A DNA stretch of 64,000 nucleotides, taken from the NCBI GenBank assembly GCA_015179125.1, contig WHVA01000443.1, positions 1 through 64,000 of the forward strand, given 5' to 3'. The translations under genes and the position numbers were made by a program. Every line of letters starts with the position of its first letter. Positions within the stretch are counted from its first letter, which is position 1. Source of the stretch: Gautieria morchelliformis (lineage: Eukaryota; Basidiomycota; Agaricomycetes; Gomphales; Gomphaceae). Shown here in pieces: positions 1-38,740 of the stretch. The notes under the pieces are model-generated. The model ran no database searches and was not told the origin of the DNA. It saw only the letters and a program-made list of their open reading frames with translations.

Positions 1-102
1 ACCCTGACATTACCTGTCACTACGTAGCATTCAGAATACCACTCATTGGTCAAGTTCTGCAGTGCCCTTGTGATACAAGGTCCTAAGATCGACATCTTTA
101 CA
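1..102 (+). repeat. Gy-A 5' LTR, 3' part only
   Basis: This stretch matches 14547-14648, the end of the Gy-A 3' LTR, with only a few differences, and ends CTTTACA. The start is off the left edge. The internal region begins at 103. No self-primer complementary to the following bases was found, unlike in the other three elements. Confidence 0.85.
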
Positions 103-240
103 CCTTTTTGAACTATCCTGCGGTTGATCGCCACGCGACCAACCGATAGTGGATTCGAAGCAATCTTGAAAAATATCGCTGCATCGACGACTAAACATCG
201 TTGAGACCCTCCAGTAGACCCTCTACTGTCGGCTGCGAGC

Positions 241-1484
241 ATGATGATTCCACGCAGTCGAAGACGGACACGAGCGACGAGCTCGAGATCCACACCCCAG
301 GCGCAGCCCAGTGACATGATGGCTGACGCTATCCTGGACCAAGAGACCAGGACGATAGAAGACGGAGAGATCGTAGATCTCACCGCCCTCGTCCCCTCAG
401 TAGGGAACGAGGAAAACCCCGACCACGTCTCGTCGAGCGTGGCCGAAGAAGAGACGACGCCAAGCGACGAGCCGGCACCGCCCCCCACATCCCTCTGCCT
501 GAGGACAAAGGAAAGGGCAGAGAAGTCTCGCCGTCATCAGACGGTAGAGCAACAACGTTGAGACGGGCACAAAGCCATGACTCAAACCGACGCTCTCGAA
601 GTAGAGCGGCGACGATCGTCCCTGAAGGAGGACGATGGGAAGAGAGACGAGCCCCAGACAATAGTCAGGACTCGGAATACTCAAGCTCTAGTCGCAAGAG
701 CTCGAGGGCTCACGCCATCGACCACGAGATGGCAGAGGCCCTGACCAAACAGGTGCAGGCTGCGCTGCACCGAAGCATGCTGACGTGCCACAAGCACGAT
801 CAGCTGGCATCGCAGCTCGACAACGCCACTGCCGCCCTAATGGCAATCGGCAAGGAACTCCACCAGGCGGAGGAGATCAGGCTGCAAGATGCAGCCACGC
901 TGGAGGACGTCCAGAAAGCACTCCGCCCACGCGGGGAACGCGACGCAACTCGTCCGAGCTCGCGACAGTCCACAGCTAATGAACGCAGTCGCGATGCACG
1001 CCGAAATGAGCGAGACAAGCAGCAAATGCCACCGCCAGCCGTCCTGGTCTAACAGGACATAAGGTTCGGGAACGAACCTCAGGAGCAACCGGCTGCCCCA
1101 ACGGACAGCCGTAAAACGATCCAACAGATCGTTAGGGATCAGGTCGCCTCAGAGCCTGACTCTGAAATGATGACCGAGAGCTTAGAGCTCGAAGTCGCAC
1201 ACTGGCAGCGTAAGGAAGCCGCAGCCGCGCGCCGCCACACACGGGCACTCGAGCTACTAGCCAAGAATGCCGAAGAGACGGTGGCCCACAGCCACACCGC
1301 TCAGCTGCCCGACGAGCAGCTCACGCAAGCCGTACAGGACGCACAGCAAGCGCACGCTGCCTACAACAGCAGGCTACGGATCCGCAACACGGGACTGACC
1401 GGGGACACCAGGCACAAAACGCCCCCGGAACCGAGAGCACAAAATGCTCCCGATCCCGAGCCCGGGGCCCGTCAGGGCATATAA
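241..1484 (+). pseudogene. Gy-A ORF1, Gag-N-like protein, broken
   Basis: An acidic, Pro/Ser-rich N-terminal part (from the ATG at 241) is followed, after a frame change near 480-560 in a C-rich run, by an Arg-rich and helical part with coiled-coil character (about 700-960), a TAA at 1050-1052 and further helical sequence to 1484. A homologous reading frame is present in the old reverse copy (32390-33088, minus strand), where the same region reads in one frame past the point of the Gy-A frameshift. The family resemblance between two copies shows it is a genuine element protein. Function unknown; by position it could be an N-terminal Gag region or a separate structural protein. It overlaps the Gag ORF by about 40 nt in another frame. 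Confidence 0.6.
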
Positions 1485-3357
1485 CAGCCTACCCCACACG
1501 GCGTCACAACCGCGCGAGCGATCCATGGCCCCAACGGAAGGCCAGGGAATCCCTGACCAGGCCGACGTCGTACCATTGGAGCCGTACGACGGGATCACAC
1601 GGATGATCTGCGTGGCGTTGGCAGACGCCGCGGACACAGACCCGGAGAAGTCTGTGCTAGCGAAGGCCGGCGTAAAATTGGCCCACCCCGAGCCATATGC
1701 AGGGGGATCAGACCTCGAAGAGTTTGAAATCTTCGTGGCAGCCATCCTACGATGGCTGAAAATGAATTGCCTCCTAGGACCAACCAGCATCGACATGCAG
1801 GTCGGCTATGTGGGCACTCGCCTCACCGGCGAAGCCCAAGAATGGTTCCTTCGAAACGTTGAACGCTTCGATCGCCAGGTCCGCATCTGGACGCTGGAAT
1901 CAGTGATGCAAGGCCTTCAAAAGAGGTTCCTGCACACACTGACATACCATCACCCCTCGAATAAGTTCGACACGGTCATGCAAGGCATGAAAACCGTTCA
2001 GGAGATGCTGAACGAGCTCACGAAATACGCGGCACGTATGATACAGCCGCCAGACGAGTACATGTTCCGGAGACGGTTCGTATCTGCGCTACGCGAAACG
2101 CTGCGCAACGAGGTCCTCAAAAAGGGCTATAATGCCGAGAGCAGCTCAATAGAGCAACTCTTCGAGACGGCCCGGATGATCGAGGAGGCATCCCGATATA
2201 ACATGGGGATGCGCTGCGCAGAAAGCGCAGCAGCAACGGCTAGCGCCGCCCGGCTCACAGGGAGCAAGCCGTTGACACAAACAGGCCTGACCAGGCCCAG
2301 CCTGTTCGCAAGAAGCGGAACAGGTCAACGGCTACCGCCCTCACGCCCAGCACAAGCTGGACGCCCGCCTGAAGCTAAACAGCCTCAAGCGTCAGGATTG
2401 TCCCCGCGACCTGCCCCACCGACGAAAACGTCGGGCCGGCCCAATGACAGGCCCAGCGGCAGCCAAAACAACACCGCATGCTTTGAATGCGGCCAACCTG
2501 GCCACAAGAAGGCAGAATGCCCCCGGCTTAGGTCCGGTATAAGGACAGCGGCCGTGAGGCACGACGGTGAAGCCGAGGATCCGGAGACAGATCCCGATCA
2601 AAGCTCTCTTCAACAGATTGATGAAGAGGGGGAGGGTGATCCCCAACCCAACGACACTCTGGATAACGGAGACACGCCCACTGAAGAGTGGGACCCTGAG
2701 CCGTCCCAATACTATGAATGGGACGAAGAGGTGGAGGACACCACCTACAGGTCCAGCGCGATCAGATTCGCGCTGGAAGACGAAACCACCACGAAAGTCA
2801 TGGTGGCACGCACATCGGTCACGCCAGATAAGGCGGCCGAGCCGGTGTATCACCACCGAAGCAAACACAGAACGCGGCCAACGCGTCCACGTAGTGAGAA
2901 CCGTACCCTATCGGGGTACTGGGAAATAAACGGCGTAAAAGCCCACTGCCTGCTAGATAGCGGCAGCGAAGGGGTACTGCTGTCCCCCGAATTCACGCGA
3001 GCTACAGGGATGAAGACATTCTCCCTGGAGCAACCAATTGCACTGCAGCTAGCCTGCATAGGCAGCCGTTCCACGATCAACTATGGAACAAACACGACCA
3101 TCAAGTTTGGTCGCGGGACATACGACGAATACTTCGACGTAGCAAACGTCGAATATTACGATGCGATCTTAGGGACACCGTTCCTAAGGAGATTTGGCAT
3201 AACCCTGGACTTCTCGAGCCCAGGGACGATCCGCAAGGGAAACGAGGTGATCCCCACGGGCAAGGTCTCATTCGACGACGACGAATCGAAGAACGAGGAC
3301 AAGGGGCCACGGGTGAGCAGAATCACCCAAGCGCCGACGCCGAACCTGGCTCATTGA
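1444..3357 (+). CDS. gag-pro: Gy-A Gag (capsid, zinc knuckle) fused to aspartic protease
   Basis: This is a 637-codon frame starting at ATG 1444. A capsid-like helical region spans roughly residues 75-270 and is followed by a Pro/Gln-rich linker. A CCHC zinc knuckle (C-x2-C-x4-H-x4-C, first Cys at residue 346) gives nucleic-acid binding. After an acidic linker comes a retroviral-type aspartic protease with the active-site triad D-S-G at about residue 505. Gag packages the element RNA and the protease would cleave the polyprotein. The frame ends in TGA at 3355-3357, but the same frame stays open afterwards into reverse transcriptase, so this is either a suppressed stop or, more likely, a C-to-T mutation of an Arg codon. 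The homologous Gag piece lies at 14847-15731 on the minus strand. Confidence 0.85.
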   Translation: MLPIPSPGPVRAYNSLPHTASQPRERSMAPTEGQGIPDQADVVPLEPYDGITRMICVALADAADTDPEKSVLAKAGVKLAHPEPYAGGSDLEEFEIFVAAILRWLKMNCLLGPTSIDMQVGYVGTRLTGEAQEWFLRNVERFDRQVRIWTLESVMQGLQKRFLHTLTYHHPSNKFDTVMQGMKTVQEMLNELTKYAARMIQPPDEYMFRRRFVSALRETLRNEVLKKGYNAESSSIEQLFETARMIEEASRYNMGMRCAESAAATASAARLTGSKPLTQTGLTRPSLFARSGTGQRLPPSRPAQAGRPPEAKQPQASGLSPRPAPPTKTSGRPNDRPSGSQNNTACFECGQPGHKKAECPRLRSGIRTAAVRHDGEAEDPETDPDQSSLQQIDEEGEGDPQPNDTLDNGDTPTEEWDPEPSQYYEWDEEVEDTTYRSSAIRFALEDETTTKVMVARTSVTPDKAAEPVYHHRSKHRTRPTRPRSENRTLSGYWEINGVKAHCLLDSGSEGVLLSPEFTRATGMKTFSLEQPIALQLACIGSRSTINYGTNTTIKFGRGTYDEYFDVANVEYYDAILGTPFLRRFGITLDFSSPGTIRKGNEVIPTGKVSFDDDESKNEDKGPRVSRITQAPTPNLAH

Positions 3358-4607
3358 AGCCAGGAAGACGAGTCGCGAGACGACTCGTCCTCGAACTCAC
3401 CCTACGGTCGTAGGGAGAGATGCTCTCACCTAACGGTGAAAGCGATGGGAAAGAGGAAAGCGGGCCCGTGCGCCGCGGGACCTAATAGATGCCAACAGCA
3501 CCTAATGGCTTCTAAGCCAACCACTACCATCATCCTCACGGATGATGACCTTCCTCGCCTCCGCGAGGAATGGATGGAAAGAATCGCTGACCTAGTCAGT
3601 GGAATTCCATTAGAACTCCCGCCGCTGCGGGAGATCAACCATGAGATCAACCTCATCGATCCCAACAAGCACATGCAGTATCGACTACCGAAATGCCCCG
3701 AACACTTCCGAGAGGAACTGTCGGCAAAAATAGAACGATACACCACTGCAAAGTGGTGGATTCCGGCAGTAGCGCAGCAGGCAGTGCCCATGCTGTGTGT
3801 GCCGAAGAAGAACGGTACGTTGAGAACCGTCTTCGATCTGCGCCAGCAGAACGAAAACACGGTGAAGGACGTCACACCCTTCCCGGATCAGGATATCATA
3901 TGCAGCGACATGGCTCGCTGCCAATATCGAACTAAACTCGATATGTCAGAAGCATACGAGCAGATCCGGATCCATCCAGATCACGTAGCAAAGACAGCCT
4001 TTGCCACGATCCTCGGCACCTTCAGGAGCCAGGTGATACAGATGGGGGACTGTAACGCCCCATCAACATTCCAACGGCTGATGACAGCCATTTTCCGCGA
4101 CTGCATAGGTCGCTTCGTCCATGTATACATGGATGACATCTTCATATTCTCGCTCTCAATACAAGAGCATGAAGAGCACCTCTACATCGTCTTTGACAGA
4201 CTGAGGAAGAACCACCTCTTTCTGAGCAAGAAAAAGGTGGACCTCTACTCCATCCGAATGGAGTGCCTCGGCCATATGATCGATGGCCGAGGGGTACATG
4301 CCGACGAGGATAAGATGCAACGCATCCGCGAGTGGCGCAGGCCATGGACGTTCAACGACGTCCAGCGTTTCCTCGGGCTCGTACAGTATCTGGCACACTA
4401 CATGCCGGATGTTAGCGCATATACCACCCCGCTATCGGGCTGTGCGCGTAATAACCGTCCATTCGAATGGACGCCACTGCTCGACAAATGCTGGCAAAGC
4501 ATTAAGGCGTTGGCCTGTAAGGCCCCGATCCTGTGTCCAGTAGACGCAAGGTGCCCAGAGCCGATCTGGGTGATCACCGACAGATCAAAAGCCGGCGTCG
4601 GGGAATC
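3358..4607 (+). pseudogene. Gy-A reverse transcriptase with truncated RNase H
   Basis: The frame continues from the protease after one TGA and contains the palm and finger motifs of a Ty3/Gypsy reverse transcriptase. The catalytic Y-M-D-D is intact at 4126-4137. It stops being RT-like around 4560-4600, where the first RNase H motif (I-T-D-R-S-K-A-G) is joined directly to the integrase core in another frame. The rest of RNase H and the N-terminal HHCC zinc domain of integrase are missing, a deletion of roughly 1 kb compared with Gy-B. The element could not complete reverse transcription or integration by itself. Confidence 0.85.
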
Positions 4608-5687
4608 GACTTCATGGGGCCCCTGCCCAAGTCCAACGACTGTGACTACCTGATGGTAGTCATCGACCGACTAACGTCGCTCGTACACCTTGTGCCAACC
4701 ACGACGAGCGTGTCAGCCAAGGGAGTAGCCTGGCTGTTTCTGAAAGAGGTCATCCGACTACACGGAGTTACCGACTCCATCGTCTCGGACAGAGACTCAA
4801 AGTTCACGTCGATCTTCTGGCGTGAACTCCAGTGACTCATGGGGACTAAGCTCCTCATGTCAACTGCCTTCCATCCACAAACGGATGGAGCAACCGAGCG
4901 GGCAAACCGCTCGATCGGCCAGATATTGCGCGCGGTCGTCAGAGACGATCAGAAGGATTGGGCAGTGAAATGCCCAATGGTTGAGGTCGCCCTCAACAGC
5001 AACGTCAGTGTGACCACAGGGTTCGCACCTTTCGAGCTGATCCACGGCTATATGCCGCGGATAGACCTCCCCATAGCCGCGGACACCCCGTTCAAGGGGG
5101 TGGCCCAGTTCGCACATCAGGCAAAATGGAACCTGATGGCGGCACACGATGCAATCATAGAGCATCGAGTGACGCAAACGTTTCACGCAAATAAGAAACG
5201 TATGGCGAGCGACAGGTATGCGGCCAACGACCGTGTCTACCTTTCGACACAAAACCTAACTCTCCCGAAAGGAAGAGCCAGAAAACTAGTCCCGCGGTAC
5301 GTCGGACCGTACCGCATTGTTGAGGCTCACAACGACGACTCGACGGTGACCCTTGATCTTCCCGACGAACTGAAAAGCCGTCGCATTTCACCGGTCTTCC
5401 ATTCCAGCCTCGTACGGCGATACGAGGCTAACAACGACGAATTGTTCCCTCGTCGTGAGGCCAAGTCATTTTATGACTTCGGAGCAAATGACGACGAGGA
5501 GTGGCTCGTCGACGAGATTATCGCACATCGATGGATAAACTCGACGGACCTGGAATTCCAGGTCCGTTGGACCCTAGGCGACGTGACATGGGAACCTATG
5601 TCGTCCTGCAAGGACCTTGAAGCCCTGGATAGCTACCTAGAGCTTCGGGGGGTGGGCAAGCCACGTGACCTCCCCAGACACCGCTAG
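4600..5687 (+). pseudogene. Gy-A integrase core and chromodomain
   Basis: The integrase catalytic core has all three acidic residues at codons 4608 (D), 4788 (D) and 4896 (E), giving D-x59-D-x35-E, the classic spacing. A TGA at 4833-4835 interrupts the frame where relatives have Arg (CGA), consistent with one C-to-T change. The C-terminal part (about 5250-5420) resembles the GPF/GPY module with its G-P-Y-R-I-V sequence, and 5500-5660 is a chromodomain (E-W-L-V-D-E-I-I ... V-R-W ... T-W-E-P). In related chromoviruses this domain directs insertion to heterochromatin by reading methylated histone H3. The N-terminal zinc domain has been deleted. Confidence 0.85.
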
Positions 5688-5808
5688 ACGTGTCTGTCAC
5701 GTGCAGGCCACGTGACGCGCCGGCCACGGCGCTTAAATTTTCACCTCGGATCTTTCCGAGGGCGCATCGCTTCTTGGAAGCAACCACCACCATCATCTAC
5801 CCACGAAG

Positions 5809-7800
5809 ATGATGCCCCCCAAAGATGGGATGGACGTTGACCCATCAACGTCCACAACGCGAACAACGGCCCCGAGACAAGGGGCCGCAGACATTCTCCG
5901 TGCTCCGATAGACCAGGAGCACTGGACGATCGTGGGATGGGAGGACGCCCTCGCCATCGTCCACCCGGACGATTGTGCAACATGCGCGGACTACGCTGTG
6001 CACCTTAGGGCCGCGACCAGCACCCGCAAGGTCAAGTTGCGGGATGAAGACATCGGCGACGCCGTCGATGCAGCTTGGGGATGGCTCCCAAGGGGCATCG
6101 TGCGTGACGCGCAAGAAGAGCCCCTCCGGGACGTCCACGACCTCAAGAAAGAGGTCAAGGAGCTAGAACACGCGGTCAAGGACTGCGACGATGCGCTCGT
6201 AACCGAGCGCGCCAGGATCAAGGAACTGGAGCAGCAGCTGAGTGCAGCCCAGCTCCAGGTTACCCTGGTCCACGCTTCCTCAAAAAGGCCGCGACATGAC
6301 CCGGCCACAGACCCAGTGGCCGGGCCATCTTCACCTCGCGCGACGGCGCCATTGCCGGCACGCGCAACATCGGGGCTCGCGTCCCGATTGTCGGCGCCGA
6401 CTCTGACCACGACAACAACGGAAGGGCAGAGCGCACCTTCCGACTCTGCATACGGCGTCCCAGATGGATGGGAGTCAGACTCGTCCGTCTGGAAGACGTA
6501 TGACCCCGAACGGGCACAGCGGCTGGCAGAGCAGCCAAAGAAAAAGCGCAAGAAATTGTGCGGCTCCCTCCACACCGTCAATGGGCTAGCCATTGCGAAG
6601 GAAAGCGCAATCAGCGCTTACCTAGCGGCATCATCGTCGCACACCATCAACGACCCCGCCCTTCAGTGGCGGGTAGCACAGGTCGAGGCCCAGTACATTG
6701 GGCCTGGCGTGGCCCTACATCCGCCGGCGGGGACAGTTGAGTCGGTTCATCCTCCATACCCGGGGGAGGGAAGGCTCATCCCACTCGGAGATCCACCGAT
6801 CTCCGAGACGGGCCTCCTACCACGACCGGTAGGAAAGGCCCAACAACGTCGTACCCAATGGTACGACGTCTGCCCGCTCGACGAACCCTGCTTCGTCGAA
6901 CTCATAGCGTGGGCAAAAGAAACGCCGCAGATCGCGTGTACACGCGAGATGATCGGCGTGTTCAAACGCATCAAGCGTGAACAACGCGCTCGCAATCCCA
7001 AAAGGGATTGTCTCGTGATAGCGGGCGGTACCCCGCACGACATCGCGGCCATTCTAAAGGGTTGGATACACAACCCTGAAGGAATCCCCTCCGCCATCCA
7101 TGACAATGCGGATGGCACCTTCAACCTAGACGACATGGACGTCTGGATGTGGTTGAAGGCCCTTGCACCCCGGGTCAAAGGGGTCGCATCACCGCTCAGG
7201 GCGAGGCTACTCGACCTCTTCAGCTCGACGGACCAATGGTCGAGCCTCGTCGACGCCAGGGAAGTGCTGACGCCTCAGAGCACCACCCTGCGGCTCTCAA
7301 TCACGGGCCCATTCCCTGTGGAGGGCCGGGCCGGCCCCGACATCCCACTCGCAGAGATCGCGAGATGGTTGGCCCGCTACGCGGGAGTCACTCGTGAGCG
7401 AGCGGCGCGCATTGAACATTACGTTCAGCGCAGCATCACCGGCGCGGCATTCAGCGCCGCCGCCCGTGAGGGCCAACAAAAGGTCATCGAGACCAGCCAC
7501 GTGAGGGCCGCAGTGCCGTGACCCCTCACTCACGCTCAGCTCGACCAAGAGCTGGCGCACTTCCAGCCCCCTCCTCAAACGGAGGACCCGGCTGTTGAGG
7601 CCATGCTCCGCGAGGACGTGGGCCCCAGTGCCCAAGCGGAGACCGCCGCTAATGGTGAGGCCGACCAGCCTCACCCGATCGCCACCGATGACGCGGAGGT
7701 GCCCCCGGAGGAGTCACGTGCTCCTCCGGCCCCGTACGACGACGACGTCATCGTATCGGCCACTCTAGAGGACTCCCTCATGGACGACCTCTATGAGTAG
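5809..7800 (+). pseudogene. Gy-A accessory ORF in the env position: coiled-coil, NLS-bearing protein, one stop
   Basis: Frame 5809-7521 (570 codons) and frame 7603-7800 are the same frame, separated only by TGA 7519-7521. The intact form would be about 663 codons. Residues 105-153 form a clear heptad-like coiled coil. A basic K-K-K-R-K-K cluster at residues 244-249 and K-R-P-R at 159-162 look like nuclear localisation signals. The C-terminal half (from about residue 350) is compact and hydrophobic, probably a folded domain, and the tail is acidic. I do not recognise the family. It sits between integrase and the 3' LTR where retroviruses carry env, but no signal peptide or membrane segment is visible. 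A TTAAATTTT sequence at 5733-5741 could serve as its own promoter. The stop fits a C-to-T change. Confidence 0.6.
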
Positions 7801-7936
7801 GCGTTAACCCCTATAGTTGTCTATAGAGGGGGAGTGTGTAAATAACCCATGTATCTACATGTACATTAGTTATTACATAATCCCAGTGGGCCCCTTAGGG
7901 ACCCACTGTATAGTTTATGCGTGGGAACCGGCTAGC

Positions 7937-14846: not shown

Positions 14847-14960
14847 GCATCCCCATGTTATAGCGGGATGCTTCCTCAATCATGCGGGCTGCTTTGAAGA
14901 GCTGCTCTCTGCGTTGTAGCCCTTTTTGAGGACTTCATTGCACAGCATTTCGCGCAATGC

Positions 14961-15731
14961 TCACACGAACCATCTCCAGAACGTGTATTCGTTGGGCGGC
15001 TGTATCATACAAGCCACATATTTTGTTAGATCGTTCAGCATCTCCTGAACAGTCTTCGTGCTCAGCATGACTGCATCGAAATGGTGGTATGTTAGGGTGT
15101 GCAGGAACCGCTTCTGAAGGCCCTGCATCACTGTCTCCAAGGTCCACTCATGGACCTGGCGGTCGAAATGTTCCACATTTTGAAGAAACCATTCCTGGGC
15201 CTCACTGGCAAGGCGAGTGCCCATGTATCTGACCTGCATATCCACGCTAGTCGGTCCCAGGAGGCAATACATCTTGAGCCATCTCAAGATGGCTGTGACG
15301 AAGACCTCAAACTCTTTGAGGTCGGACCCCCCTGCCTATGGCTTGGGATGGGCCAGCTTCACACCAGCCTTTGCCAGCGTGGACTTCTCAGGGTCCATGT
15401 CACGTCGGCCATCGCGACACGTATCATTCGTGTGATACCGTCATATGGCTCTTGTGTGCCATCTGGCTGGTCCGGCATGCCCTGACCTTCAGTCAGGGCC
15501 ATGGTCCGGTCACGCGGCAGTGAAGCTGCGTGGACCATGTCAGCATATGCTCTGACTGGGCCGGGGCCGGGTCGGGCTCAGGGCAGGGCACCTCCAACAC
15601 GTGGGCATCTGGCGAGGGCATGTGACGAGTGTTGCTTGTCAGACCTGTGTTGCGGAGACACAGCCTACTATTGTAAGCTGCGCGCATTTGCCGTGCATCC
15701 TGTACGGCATGCATGAGCAGCTCGTCGGGCT
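14961..15731 (-). pseudogene. Gy-A' Gag fragment
   Basis: On the minus strand this encodes a capsid-like stretch matching Gy-A residues of about 85-230 (for example R-W-L-K-M, C-L-L-G-P-T, S-E-A-Q-E-W-F-L) with several stops upstream. It is cut at 15731 by solo LTR X1 and at 14846 by the family C LTR. It cannot make a working protein. Confidence 0.8.
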
Positions 15732-25190: not shown

Positions 25191-26423
25191 ATGTCCATGA
25201 TAACTCGTTCTCGCACCCTTCGGGGTATCTCAGAACAGCGACGTTTCTCGGAAGCCCCCGATGATTCACCCCCGTCCCCGGGGATACCCCTCGCAGACCC
25301 CGCCGAGCCTAGTAACAAAGGCAAAGGTAGGGCTAACCTCGGTGACCCTCCAGGTGATCCAGGTGATGGCTCTAGAAGTTCTGACAACGATCGGGACCTC
25401 CCCAACCTTCCGCCCGAGGACCTCGGTGACCTCGAGGACAACGAGCTTATGCGTCGAGTGTTCATCAAACTCGCGAAACCTCGCGAATCCGAAGCACGAG
25501 CCAAGGTCAAGGAACCGGATAGTTATGACGGTACTGACCAAGCCAAGCTTCGCACTTTCTTCCTTCAATGTGTACTCAACTTCAGAGATCGCCCCACCGC
25601 GTTCAAGACTGGGGCCTCAAAGGTGCAGTATGCTATTTCTTACCTGTCCGGCTCGGCTCTGCAATATTTCGAGCCGGCGATCCTCGGCGAAGTCCAACCC
25701 GAGCCAGATTGGCTCGAGGACTGGGACAGCTTCAAGGCCGAGCTCGAGCTTAACTTCGGCCCATACGACAACGCGGCCCAAGCCGAGATTGACCTCGAGA
25801 AGATCGTTATGAAAGAGCACCACAAGGCCGCGCGATTCTTTATCGATTTCGCCCGAGCTTCGACTCGGACTCAGTGGAACGACGCGGCCCTCCGACACTT
25901 TGCCTACAAGGGCTTGGCCAAACGGATCAAGGACGACTTACTTCACTTCCCTCGATTCCGCAGCCTCGCCGAGCTTAGGAACTTCGCGCTGGAATGCGAT
26001 AGCCGTTACTGGGAGCGAAAGGAATACGACGCCATGATCAATGGTCGTAGCTCCCAGCCTGCACGCACCACTAATCAGTCCAGTAGCAATGCCACTAACA
26101 ACCACCAGTCTTCCAGTGGTTCCAATAACAATAAGAACCGCAACAAGACTAACAACAGCGGCAAGGGTTCCAACGACAACAACTCTTCGAACAACAAGAG
26201 CCAGCCCAACATTTCGAGCAAACTCGGAAAGGATGGCAAACTGCTTCCCGAGGAGCGCCAACGCCGGGTCGACCAAGGACTTTGTCTGCTTTGCGGCACC
26301 AAAGGTCACGTCGTCAAGGACTGCCCGAAGAACAAGTCTACCAATAGTAGCGGTTCTAAAGGTCGGGCAACGAAGACCCCTAACGAGGGGACTTCAGCCT
26401 CCATTACGGAGGTGAAAAAATAG
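25191..26423 (+). CDS. gag: Gy-D Gag
   Basis: The 410-codon ORF starts at ATG 25191, 44 nt after the LTR. A Pro/Gly/Asp-rich N-terminus is followed by a capsid domain (about residues 100-275), an Asn/Ser-rich low-complexity linker and a CCHC zinc knuckle (C-L-L-C-G-T-K-G-H-V-V-K-D-C, from residue 365). It ends TAG 26421-26423 directly after two Lys AAA codons. The -1 frame is open from there into the protease, so slippage on A6 is a plausible way to make Gag-Pol, though the heptamer is not canonical. Confidence 0.9.
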   Translation: MSMITRSRTLRGISEQRRFSEAPDDSPPSPGIPLADPAEPSNKGKGRANLGDPPGDPGDGSRSSDNDRDLPNLPPEDLGDLEDNELMRRVFIKLAKPRESEARAKVKEPDSYDGTDQAKLRTFFLQCVLNFRDRPTAFKTGASKVQYAISYLSGSALQYFEPAILGEVQPEPDWLEDWDSFKAELELNFGPYDNAAQAEIDLEKIVMKEHHKAARFFIDFARASTRTQWNDAALRHFAYKGLAKRIKDDLLHFPRFRSLAELRNFALECDSRYWERKEYDAMINGRSSQPARTTNQSSSNATNNHQSSSGSNNNKNRNKTNNSGKGSNDNNSSNNKSQPNISSKLGKDGKLLPEERQRRVDQGLCLLCGTKGHVVKDCPKNKSTNSSGSKGRATKTPNEGTSASITEVKK

Positions 26424-27331
26424 GTAGCAACCTCGGAACCACACGATCCGAGGATTGCGGTAACCTCACCCGTGTGCTCAGACTCAGCGCCGCTTCTCAT
26501 TCATTGTCCAAAGATTCCCTTAATGTAGATCTAACCTCGCCTTCGCTGCCCAACGTCGCTTTTGTTGCATTAGTTGACTGCGGGTCCTCAGACTGTTTTA
26601 TTGAATCCAGATTTGTCCAGAAGTACTCCATGCCTGCTTATCCTGTCTCTCCTATACCCTTGAAACTATTTGACGGTAGTACTAACACTACCATTACCCA
26701 AGCTCTAGACCTCTGCATTTGCTTTCCGACCGGCGAACAACAATGGGTTACCTTCTACGTAACCTCGCTCGACTCAAGTTGCTCGATGGTACTTGGCCAC
26801 AACTGGCTCACCCGCTACAATCCGTCGATTGACTGGGTATTGGGCAGTATTACTTTCAAGACCATCGACCTAACAACGACTCCAGCGACCCCGGCGACGT
26901 CAGCCCGCTCAGCTTCGGCTACGACTTCGACCTCGCCTACGGCATCTTCGCCCCCGCCTCCGACCTCGCTTCCGAAGTTGCAAGCACCCCTCGTTTCCCT
27001 AATCAATGCACCCGCTTTCATGCGCGCATCTAGATTGGAAGGGTCCGAAGTGTTTCAGCTCAATTTGGCTTCGCCTGAGCTCCTCGCCAGAGGGGCAACA
27101 TCGGGAGGAAGCTCTTCCGAGCTTCCTGAGAACGTTAAGAAACATGTTCCTGAAGTATATCACGAATTTGCAGATGTGTTCAGCAAAGCACGCGCTGACA
27201 CTCTAGCTCCCCACCGACCTCACGATATCAAAATCAACCTCGAAGAAGGGACCTCGCCACCTATCGGTCCCATCTACTCTCTCTCAGTTCCGAACTCAAA
27301 GCACTACGCGAGTTCATCGACGAGCATTTAA
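26417..27331 (+). CDS. Gy-D protease and start of reverse transcriptase
   Basis: In the -1 frame to gag. The protease site reads D-C-G-S-S-D-C-F, a variant of D-S/T-G, followed by the M-V-L-G-H-N-W-L motif. A Thr/Ala/Pro-rich linker leads to the reverse transcriptase N-terminus (H-E-F-A-D-V-F). Frame is lost near 27285-27295, where one C appears to be missing in a CC(C) run before the conserved E-L-K-A-L-R-E-F segment; the 27331 end is therefore an artefact of the shift. Confidence 0.85.
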
Positions 27332-28089
27332 ACATCGGTTTCATCCGACCTTCACGCTCGCCTCATGGTGCACCGGTATTGTTCGTTCGCAAAAAAGATG
27401 GCTCACTTCGGTTGTGTGTCGACTTCCGAGGTTTGAACAAAATCTCAAAAAAAGATCGGTATCCATTGCCATTGATTGCTGACTTACTTGATGCTCCAAA
27501 GAATGCTCGCATCTATACGAAAATTGACCTTCGTCACGCTTACCACCTCGTACGGGTGGCCGAGGGTGACGAATGGAAGACCGCCTTCAGGACTCGCTAT
27601 GGGTCGTTCGAATGGTTGGTCATGCCATTTGGTCTCACTAATGGCCCTGCTGCCTTCCAGAGATTCATGAACGAGGTGTTCGCCGACCTTTTGGACGTTT
27701 GTGTGGTGGTATACTTGGATGACATTCTAATCTACTCCAGTGACCCCTCCAAACATGTTGAACATGTCAAGGAAGTCTTGCGACGACTACGACTCAACAA
27801 CCTCTTCGCCAAAGAAGACAAATGCGAGTTCCATCGCGACTCGGTTGAATTCCTCGGCTACATACTCTCTCCCGAGGGCCTCACTATGGCAGATGACAAA
27901 GTAAAGGTCATTCAAGACTGGCCTGAACCTCGCAAAGTTCGCGACATCCAATCCTTCCTCGGCTTCGCCAACTTCTACCGACGTTTCATTCACAACTACT
28001 CCGACATCACCATTCCTCTCACCCGACTTACCCGCAAGGGTACCCCTTGGAATTTTTCCGAGGATTGTCGAGGGCTTTCAACCTGTTGA
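27290..28089 (+). pseudogene. Gy-D reverse transcriptase
   Basis: Contains [24 protein letters not shown] and the catalytic Y-L-D-D at 27712-27723, all intact. A second single-base loss near 28060-28070 moves the frame before A-F-N-L-L-K. Apart from the shifts, the protein looks functional. Confidence 0.85.
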
Positions 28090-30119
28090 AGAGGGCGTTC
28101 ACTACCGCCCCTATCCTTACTCACTGGATTCCTGACCTTCCACTGATCGTAGAGACTGATGCATCAGATTATGCCTTAGCGGCAATCTTATCACTACGAA
28201 CCTCGGAAGGCGAACTTCATCCCGTCGCTTTCCACTCCCGCACATTCACCTCTACCGAGCTCAACTACGATGTTCACGACAAGGAGCTCCTCGCCATTTT
28301 TGAAGCTTTTCAACGCTGGCGACACTACCTAGAGGGCTCAGGCGAACCAGTTGACGTTATCACCGATCACAAGAACCTCGAATACTTTTCAACTACGAAG
28401 CTCTTGACCCGTCGTCAAGCTCGGTGGTCGGAATACCTTTCCCAGTTCAACCTCGCCATACGCTTCCGACCTGGTCGCCTCGGAACGAAGCCTGACTCTC
28501 TCACCAGACGATGGGACGTCTACCTTAAAGAGGGGAATAGCGACTATGCCACCATAAACCCGCAGAACCTACGGCCAGTGTTTACTCAGCACCAGCTGGC
28601 ATCGTCCCTTAGAGCTACTAACCTCGCTCCCATCGTACTCCGAGCCGCTTCACTGCTTGATACCGAGCAGATCCGAGCTGACATACTAGCAAACCTCCCC
28701 TCGGACCCCATAGCCAAGTCGCACCTCGGCTTGGTTAATGACCCGAGGTGGACCACAGACCCCGAGGGATTTCTCAAACTTGACAACCGAACCTATGTTC
28801 CAGCGGCCCAAGACCTTCGACTTCGCATCCTGCAATACAAGCACGATCACATTCTCTCGGGACACTTCGGGGTCAACAAGACCTTGGAGCTGATCCGACG
28901 AGACTATACTTGGCCAGGGATTAGATCCTTTGTCAAGGAGTATTGCAAGACGTGTACCACTTGTATGCGAAGCAAGCCGCAACGTCACAAACCCTATGGT
29001 CTCCTCAAGCAACTTCCTGTTCCCGAGAAACCTTGGAATTCCATCTCTATGGATTTCATTGAGCAACTCCCCCCTTCATCCGAGTTCACCTCCATCCTAG
29101 TGATTGTTGACCGCTTCACTAAGCAGGTTATCTTCATTCCAACCACAGACAAGATAACCTCGCAGGAGCTCGCTCACCTCTTCGTTCTTCATGTCTTTTC
29201 AAAGCATGGAGTCCCCTCGCACGTCACCTCGGACAGGGGTTCCGAGTTTGTTTCGCACTTCTGGCGTTCCCTAGGGAAAGCTTTGGACATGCGGTTGCAT
29301 TTCACCTCGGGATATCATCCCGAGGGTGACGGTCAGACCGAGCGTGCTAACCAAACTTTGGAACAGTACCTCAGGATCTATTGCAACTATCAGCAGTCCA
29401 ATTGGGCTTCGCTCCTTCCCCTAGCCGAGTTCGCCTACAACAACGCGCCTAGCGCAACCACCGGCGTCTCCCCATTCTTTGCCAATAAAGGCTACCATCC
29501 GAACCTCGCAGTTCACCCCGAGCGCGACCTCGCCTCGGCACGAGCCCGAGACTTCGTGGTTGACCTGGACGAGCTTCACCAAGAACTTCGCCGCGCCATC
29601 CTCGAGGCTCAGAAAACTTACCAAGCCTCGGCCGATGTTCGTCGCAAGCCCGCTCCTGATTTCCAAGTAGGATCCCTCGCTTTTGTAAAGGCACAGTACT
29701 TTCGAACAACTCGGCCTACCAAGAAGTCGCCGAGAAGTTCTTGGGTCCTTTTGAAATCATTTCCCGAGCGGGTACTCACTCCTTCACCCTTCGACTTCCA
29801 GAACACATGCATTCAGTCCATCCGGTCTTCCACGTATCTATGCTCGAACCAGCCTCGCCCAACACCATACCAAACCGAGTTCAGCCGCCTCCGCCCCCAG
29901 TCGTTATCGACGGCGAACCCGAGTTCGAGGTTTCCGAAATCCTCGACTCGAAGATCGATAATAGATGCAAGAGCTGCAAATTACTCTACCTTGTTAGGTG
30001 GACTGGTTACGAAGGTACCGACGAAGAAACCTCGTGGATCCTCGCTTCCGAGCTTGATCATGCCTCGGAGCTGGTCACGGATTTCCATGACTCTTACCCG
30101 GGCAAGCCCGGCCCCTTGA
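28047..30119 (+). pseudogene. Gy-D RNase H and integrase
   Basis: RNase H begins at E-T-D-A-S-D (about 28155) with D-K-E-L-L-A-I. The integrase zinc domain is H-D-H-I-L-S-G-H ... C-x2-C near 28840-28970. The core has S-M-D-F-I-E, T-S-D-R-G-S-E and T-E-R-A-N-Q-T, so the D,D,E triad is present. A third single-base loss near 29725 (GG to G) leads out of frame before the G-P-F-E-I-I module. Confidence 0.85.
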
Positions 30120-32389: not shown

Positions 32390-33130
32390 TCAAGGTGCAT
32401 CCCTGAGGGACGCTGTGGGTTCTTTGCGTGAGTGAAGTTCCTTTTCCACGTCCTCTAATGAGGCCATGTCCCATTGCTGGATCTCCTCTATTTGGTGGAG
32501 TTCCTTGCTGAACTGCATGAGGGCTGTCACGATATTGTCAAGCCGCAATGTGATATGCTCATGCTTATGGCCTGTGAGCATGTTCCTGTGCAATGCGCCT
32601 TGCACTTGCTTGGCCATCACTTCCACCATCTGGTTGTCAATGGTGTGTTTCCTTGAGCTTTTGCAGCTCGAGCTCGAGTATTCTGAGCCTTGCCTGTCAT
32701 CAGGTGCTCATCTTTTGTTTTGTTGTGCCCCATCAGGGACGACAGTCATTGCTCGACTTTGTGAGTGGTGGACTGAATTTTGACTTCAAGATCATCTGGA
32801 AGTATGCCCTGATCCTGAGGCTCTGCCGTCGGATGACAGTGAGACGTCTCTGCCCTTGCCCTTGCTTAAGGGCCAGGGGGATTGGGGTGGGGATGCCAGC
32901 TTGTTGGCCAGCGGCATCCCATCTTCGACCATGCTGGGTGATACGTGGTCGGGTCCTTGCTCATCCTCGATTGGTGGGAGGAGTGTGGTGAGGTCTATGA
33001 CCTCTCTGTCTTCTGGTGTCCTGGACTCTTGGTCCAGGGTTGCATCAGCTGCTGTGTCGCTAGGCTGTGCCTGGGGTGTTGACCACAAGCTAGAAGCTTG
33101 TGTCCTTCTTCAACTGCATGGAATCATCAT
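32390..33130 (-). pseudogene. Gy-A' ORF1 remnant
   Basis: Frames on the minus strand at 32792-33088 and 32390-32629 match Gy-A ORF1 (P-Q-A-Q-P-S-D, D-L-T-x-L, K-Q-V-Q-x-A-L-H-R). They lie in different frames with stops between them. The sequence also has strong short hairpins, for example at 33083-33101. Confidence 0.7.
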
Positions 33131-33270
33131 GCTCGCAGTCGACAGTAGAGGGTCTACTGGATGGTGTTCAACAGTAAACAGCCATCGACGCAGCCATCTT
33201 TTTCAAGATTGTGCGGATTTCCACAAATCAGTTGTTCACTTGATGAACAACTGCAGGAAGTTCAAAAAGG

Positions 33271-33608
33271 TGTAAGTGAGTGGATCTTAGGTCCTTGTAT
33301 CACAAGGGCAAACAGAACTCAACCAATGTGTGGTTATTCCATGTGCTATGTAGTGACAGTGTAAGGTAAGGTTATCTGGGGAACTGCCGCACGGTTCCCA
33401 TGCAAGACACAAGGTAGTAGAACTCAACCAAACTATGGTGATTCTAATACGACGTAGTGATGGTTACAGGTAAAGTTAAGCTGGGGAATACCGGAGGATT
33501 CCCACGCAAGAACTATACAGTGGGTCTGTGAGGACCCACTGGTGCTATGTAAGCTACCAGTTATTATGTATTGCCTTGTGGCAATACAGGTAAATATATG
33601 TATTTACA
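33271..33608 (-). repeat. Gy-A' 5' LTR with an internal tandem duplication
   Basis: Read on the minus strand it starts TGTAAATAC and ends CACTTACA. About 95 bp are present twice in diverged form (units around 33288-33385 and 33386-33490), each with GTGGGAA, TTCCCCAG and GGTTGAGTTCT. Gy-A has only one unit, which explains 338 bp against 214 bp. Confidence 0.8.
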
Positions 33609-38450: not shown

Positions 38451-38524
38451 CGCCCCGGGAGCGGGACCGGGGCAGGGGCAGAAGTAGGGGGCCAGGGGAA
38501 CCCGCGGTGCGGCGACGTCGCCCG

Positions 38525-38740
38525 TCAAGCGGGGGTAATCGCAGACTCGACGTACCCGCCCACCTCCAAACTGACCCCGCGGATCGACGCGGTGCTGGTG
38601 GCGGGACGCAGACGCAGAATAGGGTCCGCGATGCGGCCGCGCCGCTCTTCAAGCGGGGGTAATCGCAGACTCGACGTGCCCACCCACCTCCAAACTAACC
38701 ACGCGCACATCCAAATTGAGCACGCGGATCGACGCGGGGA
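38525..38740. repeat. Short direct duplication, period about 120 bp
   Basis: TCAAGCGGGGGTAATCGCAG and the following GACTCGACGTRCCC...CACCTCCAAACT occur at 38526 and 38651, each followed by GCGGATCGACGCG. GC-rich; no gene. Confidence 0.75.

Follow-up and report, generated by a model that had tools for sequence, protein, structure and literature searches.

The first 64,000 nucleotides of contig WHVA01000443.1 of the fungus Gautieria morchelliformis (hereafter the window) form the start of a contig of at least 95,069 bases (C497) in a genome of 122 Mb and 1,113 contigs. The first 7.9 kb of the window are occupied by a copy of a long terminal repeat (LTR) retrotransposon of the Gypsy type, here called Gy-A. 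An initial annotation, made from the letters alone, had described Gy-A as paved with short perfect hairpins; every stem that it named was found, and the density was confirmed by shuffling. The element comprises the following features, in which ORF stands for open reading frame and RT for reverse transcriptase.

241..7800, + strand: body of the Gy-A element, with stems (arm of at least 7, loop of at most 10) about 16 times over chance.
327..1049, + strand: upstream reading frame with codon-like divergence and without a Pfam family, recognized by stop positions and codon-position divergence.
1444..3357, + strand: gag with a zinc knuckle and an aspartyl-protease-like stretch (Pfam); 10 stems of at least 7 bp.
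3436..4653, + strand: RT ORF (RVT_1, 6e-24); 12 stems of at least 7 bp.
4839..5687, + strand: C-terminal part of the integrase (SH3_Tf2-1, 2e-12); 12 stems of at least 7 bp.
5809..7521, + strand: third ORF after pol, 570 amino acids, without a Pfam family at E 0.001; 19 stems of at least 7 bp.

The domain order (Retrotrans_gag, zf-CCHC, protease-like, RVT_1 and SH3_Tf2-1) fits a Ty3/Gypsy LTR retrotransposon. Matches of the gag ORF to gag-asp_proteas (3.6e-5), Asp_protease_2 (8.3e-5) and Retrotrans_gag (1.3e-4) fell just under the curated Pfam cut-offs, and that to zf-CCHC (2.9e-4) lay above its own. RNase H and the integrase core gave no separate Pfam matches in the window copy, which is a broken one; as to terminal repeats, the contig starts inside Gy-A, and nothing beyond short matches between other places and 10-102 or 7873-7927 was observed. 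A Pfam search with the 327..1049 frame returned nothing beyond a weak bZIP_C match (E 0.084). In the region 327-1443 (+), before the annotated gag ORF, third-position divergence was 0.40-0.48 versus 0.19-0.32 when checked in L061, L063, L066, L073 and L074 (related loci, introduced below), a codon-like pattern indicating that the coding part of Gy-A begins upstream of 1444 and is interrupted in the window copy. The 570-amino-acid ORF probably encodes a real third protein of Gy-A, since it is matched by four G. morchelliformis proteins and one distant metagenomic protein (38% identical over 92%). The composition of the element is uneven: A is strongly favored over T on the strand in 1-7930, with an AT skew of about 0.3 in 1-4000, the T fraction of Gy-A is 0.156, and T at third codon positions is avoided outside stems (0.10-0.14) and commoner within them (0.11-0.20).

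Stems were counted as perfect inverted repeats, the main count using an arm of at least 7 and a loop of at most 10, with sets varying slightly (loops of 0-10 or 3-10). Positions 241-7800 contained 68 such stems, compared with 4.3±1.7 in 40 dinucleotide shuffles, and the same shuffles were exceeded at the other arm limits (211 vs 66.6 for arms of at least 5, 112 vs 16.4 for at least 6, and 25 vs 0.8 for at least 8). Perfect stems of at least 7 bp amounted to 9.0 per kb and were spread over the whole element, the larger sub-regions holding 4.2-12.6 per kb. When each ORF was subjected to 100 codon-preserving shuffles, 10 stems were observed vs 1.6 in gag, 12 vs 1.4 in the RT, 12 vs 1.3 in the integrase and 19 vs 1.9 in the third ORF, together 53 vs 6.2; because these shuffles lose the stems, the hairpins are largely encoded by which synonymous codons are used and how they are arranged. 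Six ORFs of neighboring elements held 0, 6, 1, 0, 1 and 1 stems of at least 7 bp, with 0.7, 2.5, 1.0, 1.3, 1.1 and 0.4 in their codon-preserving shuffles. Thus neither dinucleotide- or codon-preserving shuffles nor the other elements reached the density of Gy-A, a comparison that the initial annotation had proposed. The individual hairpins checked in the sequence were:

1041-1058 (6 bp), 1062-1079 (7 bp) and 1115-1133 (7 bp), + strand: hairpins.
1062..1079, + strand: the 7-bp hairpin just listed, with loop GGAA; the related locus L066 has a 7-bp stem here with four changed bases per arm.
4266..4292, + strand: hairpin of 10 bp, loop of 7; L071, L073 and L074 show one paired change.
4456-4473 (9 bp), 5294-5315 (8 bp) and 5831-5854 (10 bp), + strand: hairpins.
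4643..4662, + strand: hairpin of 8 bp, loop of 4; a paired change is kept by both L073 and L074.
5544..5567, + strand: 24-base perfect palindrome (12 bp with no loop, or 10 bp with loop AATT).
Stem starts at 6655 (6 bp), 6686 (7 bp), 6784 (10 bp), 6846 (10 bp) and 6878 (8 bp), + strand: hairpins.
6784-6807 (10 bp), 6815-6834 (7 bp) and 6846-6869 (10 bp), + strand: three consecutive hairpins, of which the first and last are the 10-bp stems just listed.
Stem starts at 6932 (8 bp, no loop), 6993 (7 bp), 7058 (7 bp) and 7093 (7 bp), + strand: hairpins.

Most coordinates first given for these hairpins were exact; the one placed at about 1092-1109 lies at 1090-1111 (6 bp, loop of 10), that at 6816 (6 bp) is the 7-bp stem of 6815-6834, and that at 5545-5566 (11 bp) extends to 5544-5567 (12 bp, no loop). 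The density attributed to 6655-7116 also stood, the exact count of stems of at least 7 bp being nine instead of about eight. A spacing of 20-40 nt was an overstatement: the 102 non-overlapping hairpins lay on average 73 nt apart (median 54, with 42% at 40 nt or less), and their irregular gaps looked random (coefficient of variation 1.04).

At least 103 copies at 89% protein identity or more were recovered by an RT search (a scored subset of 5,247 first-look candidates), so that the Gy-A family is abundant; RT relatives with a species name came from other Agaricomycetes (Meripilus, Trametes, Lyophyllum, Pleurotus). Repeating the stem count on genomic copies, as had been suggested, showed that 60 family loci share the hairpin excess (L001-L060, of which L001 and L031 represent the window's own element and several may share one element), with 9.6-18.6 stems of arm at least 6 per kb, the corresponding count being 2-4 for most other kilobases of the window. 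Fourteen related loci were also enriched (10-41 stems of at least 7 bp vs 1.1-3.5 expected); these were hand-picked among the listed matches, represent nine elements in all, and comprise L061-L068 (eight loci, 71-73% identical to the window copy) and L069-L074 (six loci, from the same or similar elements). The two other hairpin-rich places in the window, at 14.6-16.8 kb and 32-34.2 kb, are divergent reverse-strand copies of the same family:

14847..15730, - strand: divergent Gy-A family fragment, 73% to 1307-2212; its surroundings (14.6-16.8 kb) hold 14 stems of at least 6 bp vs 5.1.
32426..33371, - strand: divergent Gy-A family fragment, 71% to 3-932; its surroundings (32-34.2 kb) hold 22 stems of at least 6 bp vs 5.2.

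The hairpin paving is real, strong and, within the window, specific to one clade of elements.

The predicted folding of Gy-A was correspondingly strong. In 350-nt windows the minimum folding energy difference (MFED) was +25.3% for the sense strand (standard error, s.e., 1.3), and the antisense strand was 18.9% below shuffles; in 150-nt windows the mean z was -3.18 and -2.74, respectively. Three related loci (L063, L068 and L074) gave sense/antisense values of 21.9/15.7, 13.9/12.2 and 22.3/22.0%. Among the other elements of the window, values of -0.2/0.2% were obtained at 8.3-13.1 kb, 5.0/3.6% at 17.6-22.2 kb and 10.5/6.3% at 25.2-30.1 kb, and a control stretch gave -0.2/-1.1%. The statement that the neighboring elements are unlike Gy-A therefore held for two neighbors and nearly for the third, at 25.2-30.1 kb (here taken as Gy-D), whose excess of +10.5% is mild. 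Weaker, sense-leaning excess was thus seen in two other fungal Gypsy sequences, Gy-D and L075 (7.5/3.2%), a contig described at the end, and a lean to the sense strand was found in five of the six retroelement sets with clear folding excess. In 200-nt windows, the MFED of Gy-A (25.9%) resembled those of the RNA phages MS2 (28.6%) and Qbeta (32.0%), with 5.3% in 16S and 5.6% in 23S rRNA, and the excess per 200 nt was 16.0 kcal in sense vs 13.7 in antisense. Predicted openness of 16-nt windows was 0.0021 in Gy-A, 0.0069 in its shuffles and 0.0135 in the unfolded neighbor Gy-B; this threefold lower accessibility is the one result bearing on a role in silencing or packaging. As a separate observation, Gy-D (25191-30119, +) has its mild folding excess without perfect hairpins, and allowing G-U pairs increases its sense-strand excess (-1.14, s.e. 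0.75), which is how ordinary RNA structure behaves.

The fate of stems in inserted copies was followed in family alignments of two regions, each with 29 other loci plus the window (L001 and L031 excluded, poorly aligned stretches masked). Most differences among copies L001-L060 are recurrent C-to-T and G-to-A changes at CpG sites, a decay pattern that would mark methylated, silenced copies. Polymorphic columns made up 29-45% of CpG vs 1.5-2.7% of other columns, alike inside and outside stems, and CpG took a larger share of columns in stems than elsewhere (0.32 vs 0.18 and 0.22 vs 0.11 in the two regions). A first impression of stem sites as mutation hotspots (0.12 vs 0.063 polymorphic) was rejected on this ground, the stems being richer in CpG, and compensation among decayed copies was weakened as evidence, since only 11 of 65 column pairs lay outside CpG. 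Because much apparent compensation is CpG decay, only non-CpG counts were used. Palindrome repair was not detected in the resident copies: two or more Watson-Crick types occurred in 1/93 and 3/56 variable stem pairs, no more than in slid controls. Stems are thus broken and not mended in the copies, which argues that nothing writes hairpins into resident copies and that inserted copies lose them; decay without repair indicates that the stems belong to the lineage that keeps jumping.

Between related elements, non-CpG compensated double changes were found in 31/665 stem cells vs 5/650 controls when the window element was compared with eight relatives, and in 27/5,354 vs 3/5,241 among the relatives; these changes rest on 11 distinct column pairs. 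With stricter masking, the first 2.2 kb yielded 48/1,351 compensated cells vs 10/1,338 in controls (the alignment of L069-L072 is poor past 1.5-2.5 kb). In L074, non-CpG third codon positions had changed at 42/157 sites in stems vs 267/604 outside (0.27 vs 0.44), and, in tests with four loci (L074, L073, L063 and L066), change was lower in stems in all eight comparisons (0.25-0.31 vs 0.39-0.45; p<0.05 in six). Stem positions turn over: of the 39 window stems that could be aligned with L074, 17 were kept there (14 more not alignable), and 22 of 33 alignable L074 stems were kept in the window element (8 not alignable). The bulk folding stays in the relatives (sense MFED 13.9-22.3%).

The loops of Gy-A are A-rich and of 4-8 nt, a size range that was dropped as a discriminator because phages look alike. 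The last loop base, before the 3' arm, was A in 51/102 loops vs 29% in shuffles (p 5e-6), and the first, after the 5' arm, was G in 35% vs 25% (p 0.02), so that loop ends are strand-asymmetric; the two ends were not coupled (G..A, 19 observed, 22.9 expected from margins). In MS2, Qbeta, 16S and 23S, the folding excess rose by 1.8-2.0 kcal per 200 nt when G-U pairs were allowed. A direct single-mismatch count put G.T at 2.4 times the shuffles in Gy-A vs 3.2 times in MS2 and Qbeta, too close to decide, and G-U avoidance was dropped as proof against selection on RNA, given that the phage control showed the single-mismatch test to be weak. Moreover, being poor in T/U (0.156), Gy-A can form fewer G-U pairs. 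The G-U evidence on the selected molecule is equivocal.

The probable explanation, in our judgment, is that the sense RNA of Gy-A has been under long-lasting selection for local folding throughout, that is, a genome-scale ordered RNA structure (GORS). Four sequence features by which GORS is recognized were found (folding energy below that of dinucleotide-controlled shuffles, consecutive stem-loops not limited to known elements or untranslated regions, positional turnover and constraint at paired sites), and this reading, one of two put forward in the initial annotation, is supported by an order-dependent excess present in all ORFs, by the sense lean and by third-position constraint. It builds on observed stems that are independent of composition and codon usage, occur in relatives with synonymous constraint and compensation, and are lost through CpG decay after insertion. 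About 100 short hairpins, written largely via synonymous codon choice, are predicted to fold the sense RNA locally, and a transcript so folded should be compact and hard for antisense or small RNAs to reach. RNA, and not DNA, would be the selected molecule, and bulk folding would count more than single sites, because the stems turn over and their spacing is random. The benefit may lie in shielding the RNA from nucleases and from pairing with antisense or small RNAs or, equally, in compacting it for packaging.

Several results weigh against selection on the folding of the RNA. Beyond 2.2 kb, compensation under stricter masking was weak (23/1,374 vs 14/1,348); third-position divergence was not reduced at stems present only in L074 (0.451), a locus in which sense and antisense MFED are equal; and within the family non-CpG stem sites were as polymorphic as other sites, with no visible constraint. 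The A at the loop end reached only p 0.056 relative to codon shuffles, and the RNA controls lacked this preference (7/32 and 1/10 in MS2, Qbeta and rRNA loops). Stem GC showed no fall with arm length, contrary to the expectation of a stability threshold. Allowing G-U pairs slightly lowered the excess of Gy-A (+0.80, s.e. 0.43 kcal per 200 nt), and among single changes counted in the alignments G.T was tolerated least up to 2.2 kb (13 vs 78 controls), which did not hold farther along (59 vs 76).

Some of these results would suit a mutational process of reverse transcription, in which the growing strand pairs with itself, uses its own arm as template and then rejoins the original one, so that imperfect palindromes become perfect without selection for folding; we regard this as rather unlikely. 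It would account for stems that are strictly Watson-Crick, with G-U pairs adding nothing to the excess, and for several stems that differ between elements in one arm only. Among window stems absent from L073, 27 changes fell in the 5' arm vs 8 in the 3' arm, and relative to L074 37 vs 27, the direction expected for rewriting in minus-strand synthesis; however, the other arm comparisons were without bias (for example 12:14, 12:11, 9:9, 8:10, 11:16), and one of ten stands out (27 vs 8). Compensated pairs were mostly transitions on both sides (188/198, vs 834/1083 among single changes), as independent steps predict, with a contribution from CpG decay, and base-specific loop ends and resident copies without palindrome repair also argue against rewriting. 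The suggestion that a mutational process writes quasi-palindromes was thus not supported in resident copies, where stems only decay, and one-arm rewriting was not consistently seen; for the active lineage it draws some support from the single comparison of 27 vs 8 and from G-U pairs, which do not add to the excess, unlike in the four RNA controls. In its strongest form, the reverse transcription cycle of Gy-A would itself be a palindrome-writing engine, protein selection would only filter its products, and RNA structure would arise unselected; this we consider unlikely.

A packaging and compaction code, in which numerous small stem-loops over the length of the RNA would be bound by Gag, appears quite improbable. 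Such binding has been proposed for some single-stranded RNA phages and viruses, and the hairpin density and folding strength of Gy-A are like those of MS2 and Qbeta, with A-rich loops of 4-8 nt in hairpins across the whole element. On the other hand, the listed hairpins share no loop or stem sequence beyond the loop-end bias, their spacing is random, and from one element to another roughly half of them turn over.

Selection on single-stranded DNA, namely the minus-strand cDNA, instead of RNA is very unlikely. In its favor, sense-strand G.T is avoided in the first 2.2 kb, and a sense-strand A takes part in 26 of the 30 mismatches within long stems, mismatches that on the minus strand read as G.T, T.T or C.T, that is, as pyrimidine-pyrimidine or G.T; A-rich unpaired sites are, for their part, usual in structured RNAs. 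The excess is nevertheless larger in sense (16.0 vs 13.7 kcal per 200 nt), and allowing G-U pairs costs more of the excess on the minus strand (+2.77). An artefact of composition, codon use or annotation, to which the T-poor sequence (0.156) and the differing base use of the strands might point, can be dismissed almost with certainty, as dinucleotide- and codon-preserving shuffles fail to reproduce the stems and T-poverty lowers chance pairing.

In positive-strand RNA viruses, GORS is described in PMC7642675 as a folding excess that derives from base order, with pairings poorly conserved in position between relatives. Gy-A is alike in its order-dependent excess through the coding regions, its consecutive stem-loops and its positional turnover, and differs in being an LTR retrotransposon and not a virus spreading between cells, and in stems that are shorter, more perfect and poorer in G-U. 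The MFED values given there are about 15% for SARS-CoV-2, 7.5-10.7% for HCV and 12.5% for HPgV, the top figure for a vertebrate RNA virus being 23.4% (PMC7642675); the 25.3% of Gy-A exceeds this record, by a method that is similar but not identical (different shuffling scheme and step). The Leviviricetes MS2 and Qbeta, used here as controls, share with Gy-A a similar 200-nt MFED and a surplus of local small-loop hairpins, but have fewer stems of at least 7 bp (2.0 and 4.3 per kb, respectively, vs 9.0), and their folding excess, unlike that of Gy-A, grows when G-U pairs are allowed. The genomic RNAs of yeast Ty1 and Ty3 are likewise LTR-retrotransposon RNAs with stable regions spread through coding sequence; as far as the accessible part of that report goes, well-folded regions take up to 30% of the RNA by selective 2'-hydroxyl acylation analyzed by primer extension (SHAPE), and no excess over shuffles is given there (PMC11381356). 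Quasipalindrome template-switch mutation, also marked by perfect inverted repeats with small loops, is a known hotspot process, for which the accessible text describes no whole element rewritten (PMC7202029). Among the titles and abstract openings listed by searches of openly available literature, subscription papers being outside their scope, no description of such structure in a Gypsy element was found. GORS is known from RNA viruses; its strength here, the perfect short hairpins and the LTR-retrotransposon setting are new as far as this search shows.

Discussions of GORS in vertebrate RNA viruses have turned on persistence and innate immunity. Vertebrate immunity drops out as an explanation once equal or stronger folding is met in a fungal LTR retrotransposon that is present in very many copies and has no known infectious stage, and the case of Gy-A points to shared causes such as small RNAs, antisense RNA, nucleases or packaging; it also raises the question of the use of such folding in a mobile element. 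If the stems were written by reverse transcription, a mutational origin would be given for genome-wide RNA structure. One genome holds, side by side, a family that has such folding (Gy-A), one that has little of it (Gy-D) and one that lacks it (Gy-B), which makes both readings testable.

Viral contigs scanned with the RT alignment yielded 132 pattern matches and no relative. The same scan of genome contigs, in collections without other fungal genomes, returned L075 only, a contig filed under the GTDB genome Rhizonema (a metagenome-assembled genome of a lichen cyanobacterium) and carrying a Gypsy RT 35% identical to that of Gy-A; it is probably contamination from the lichen fungus. Elsewhere in the window, two 80-bp direct repeats, 88% identical and with a start-to-start distance of 124 bases, were observed at 38502-38705.

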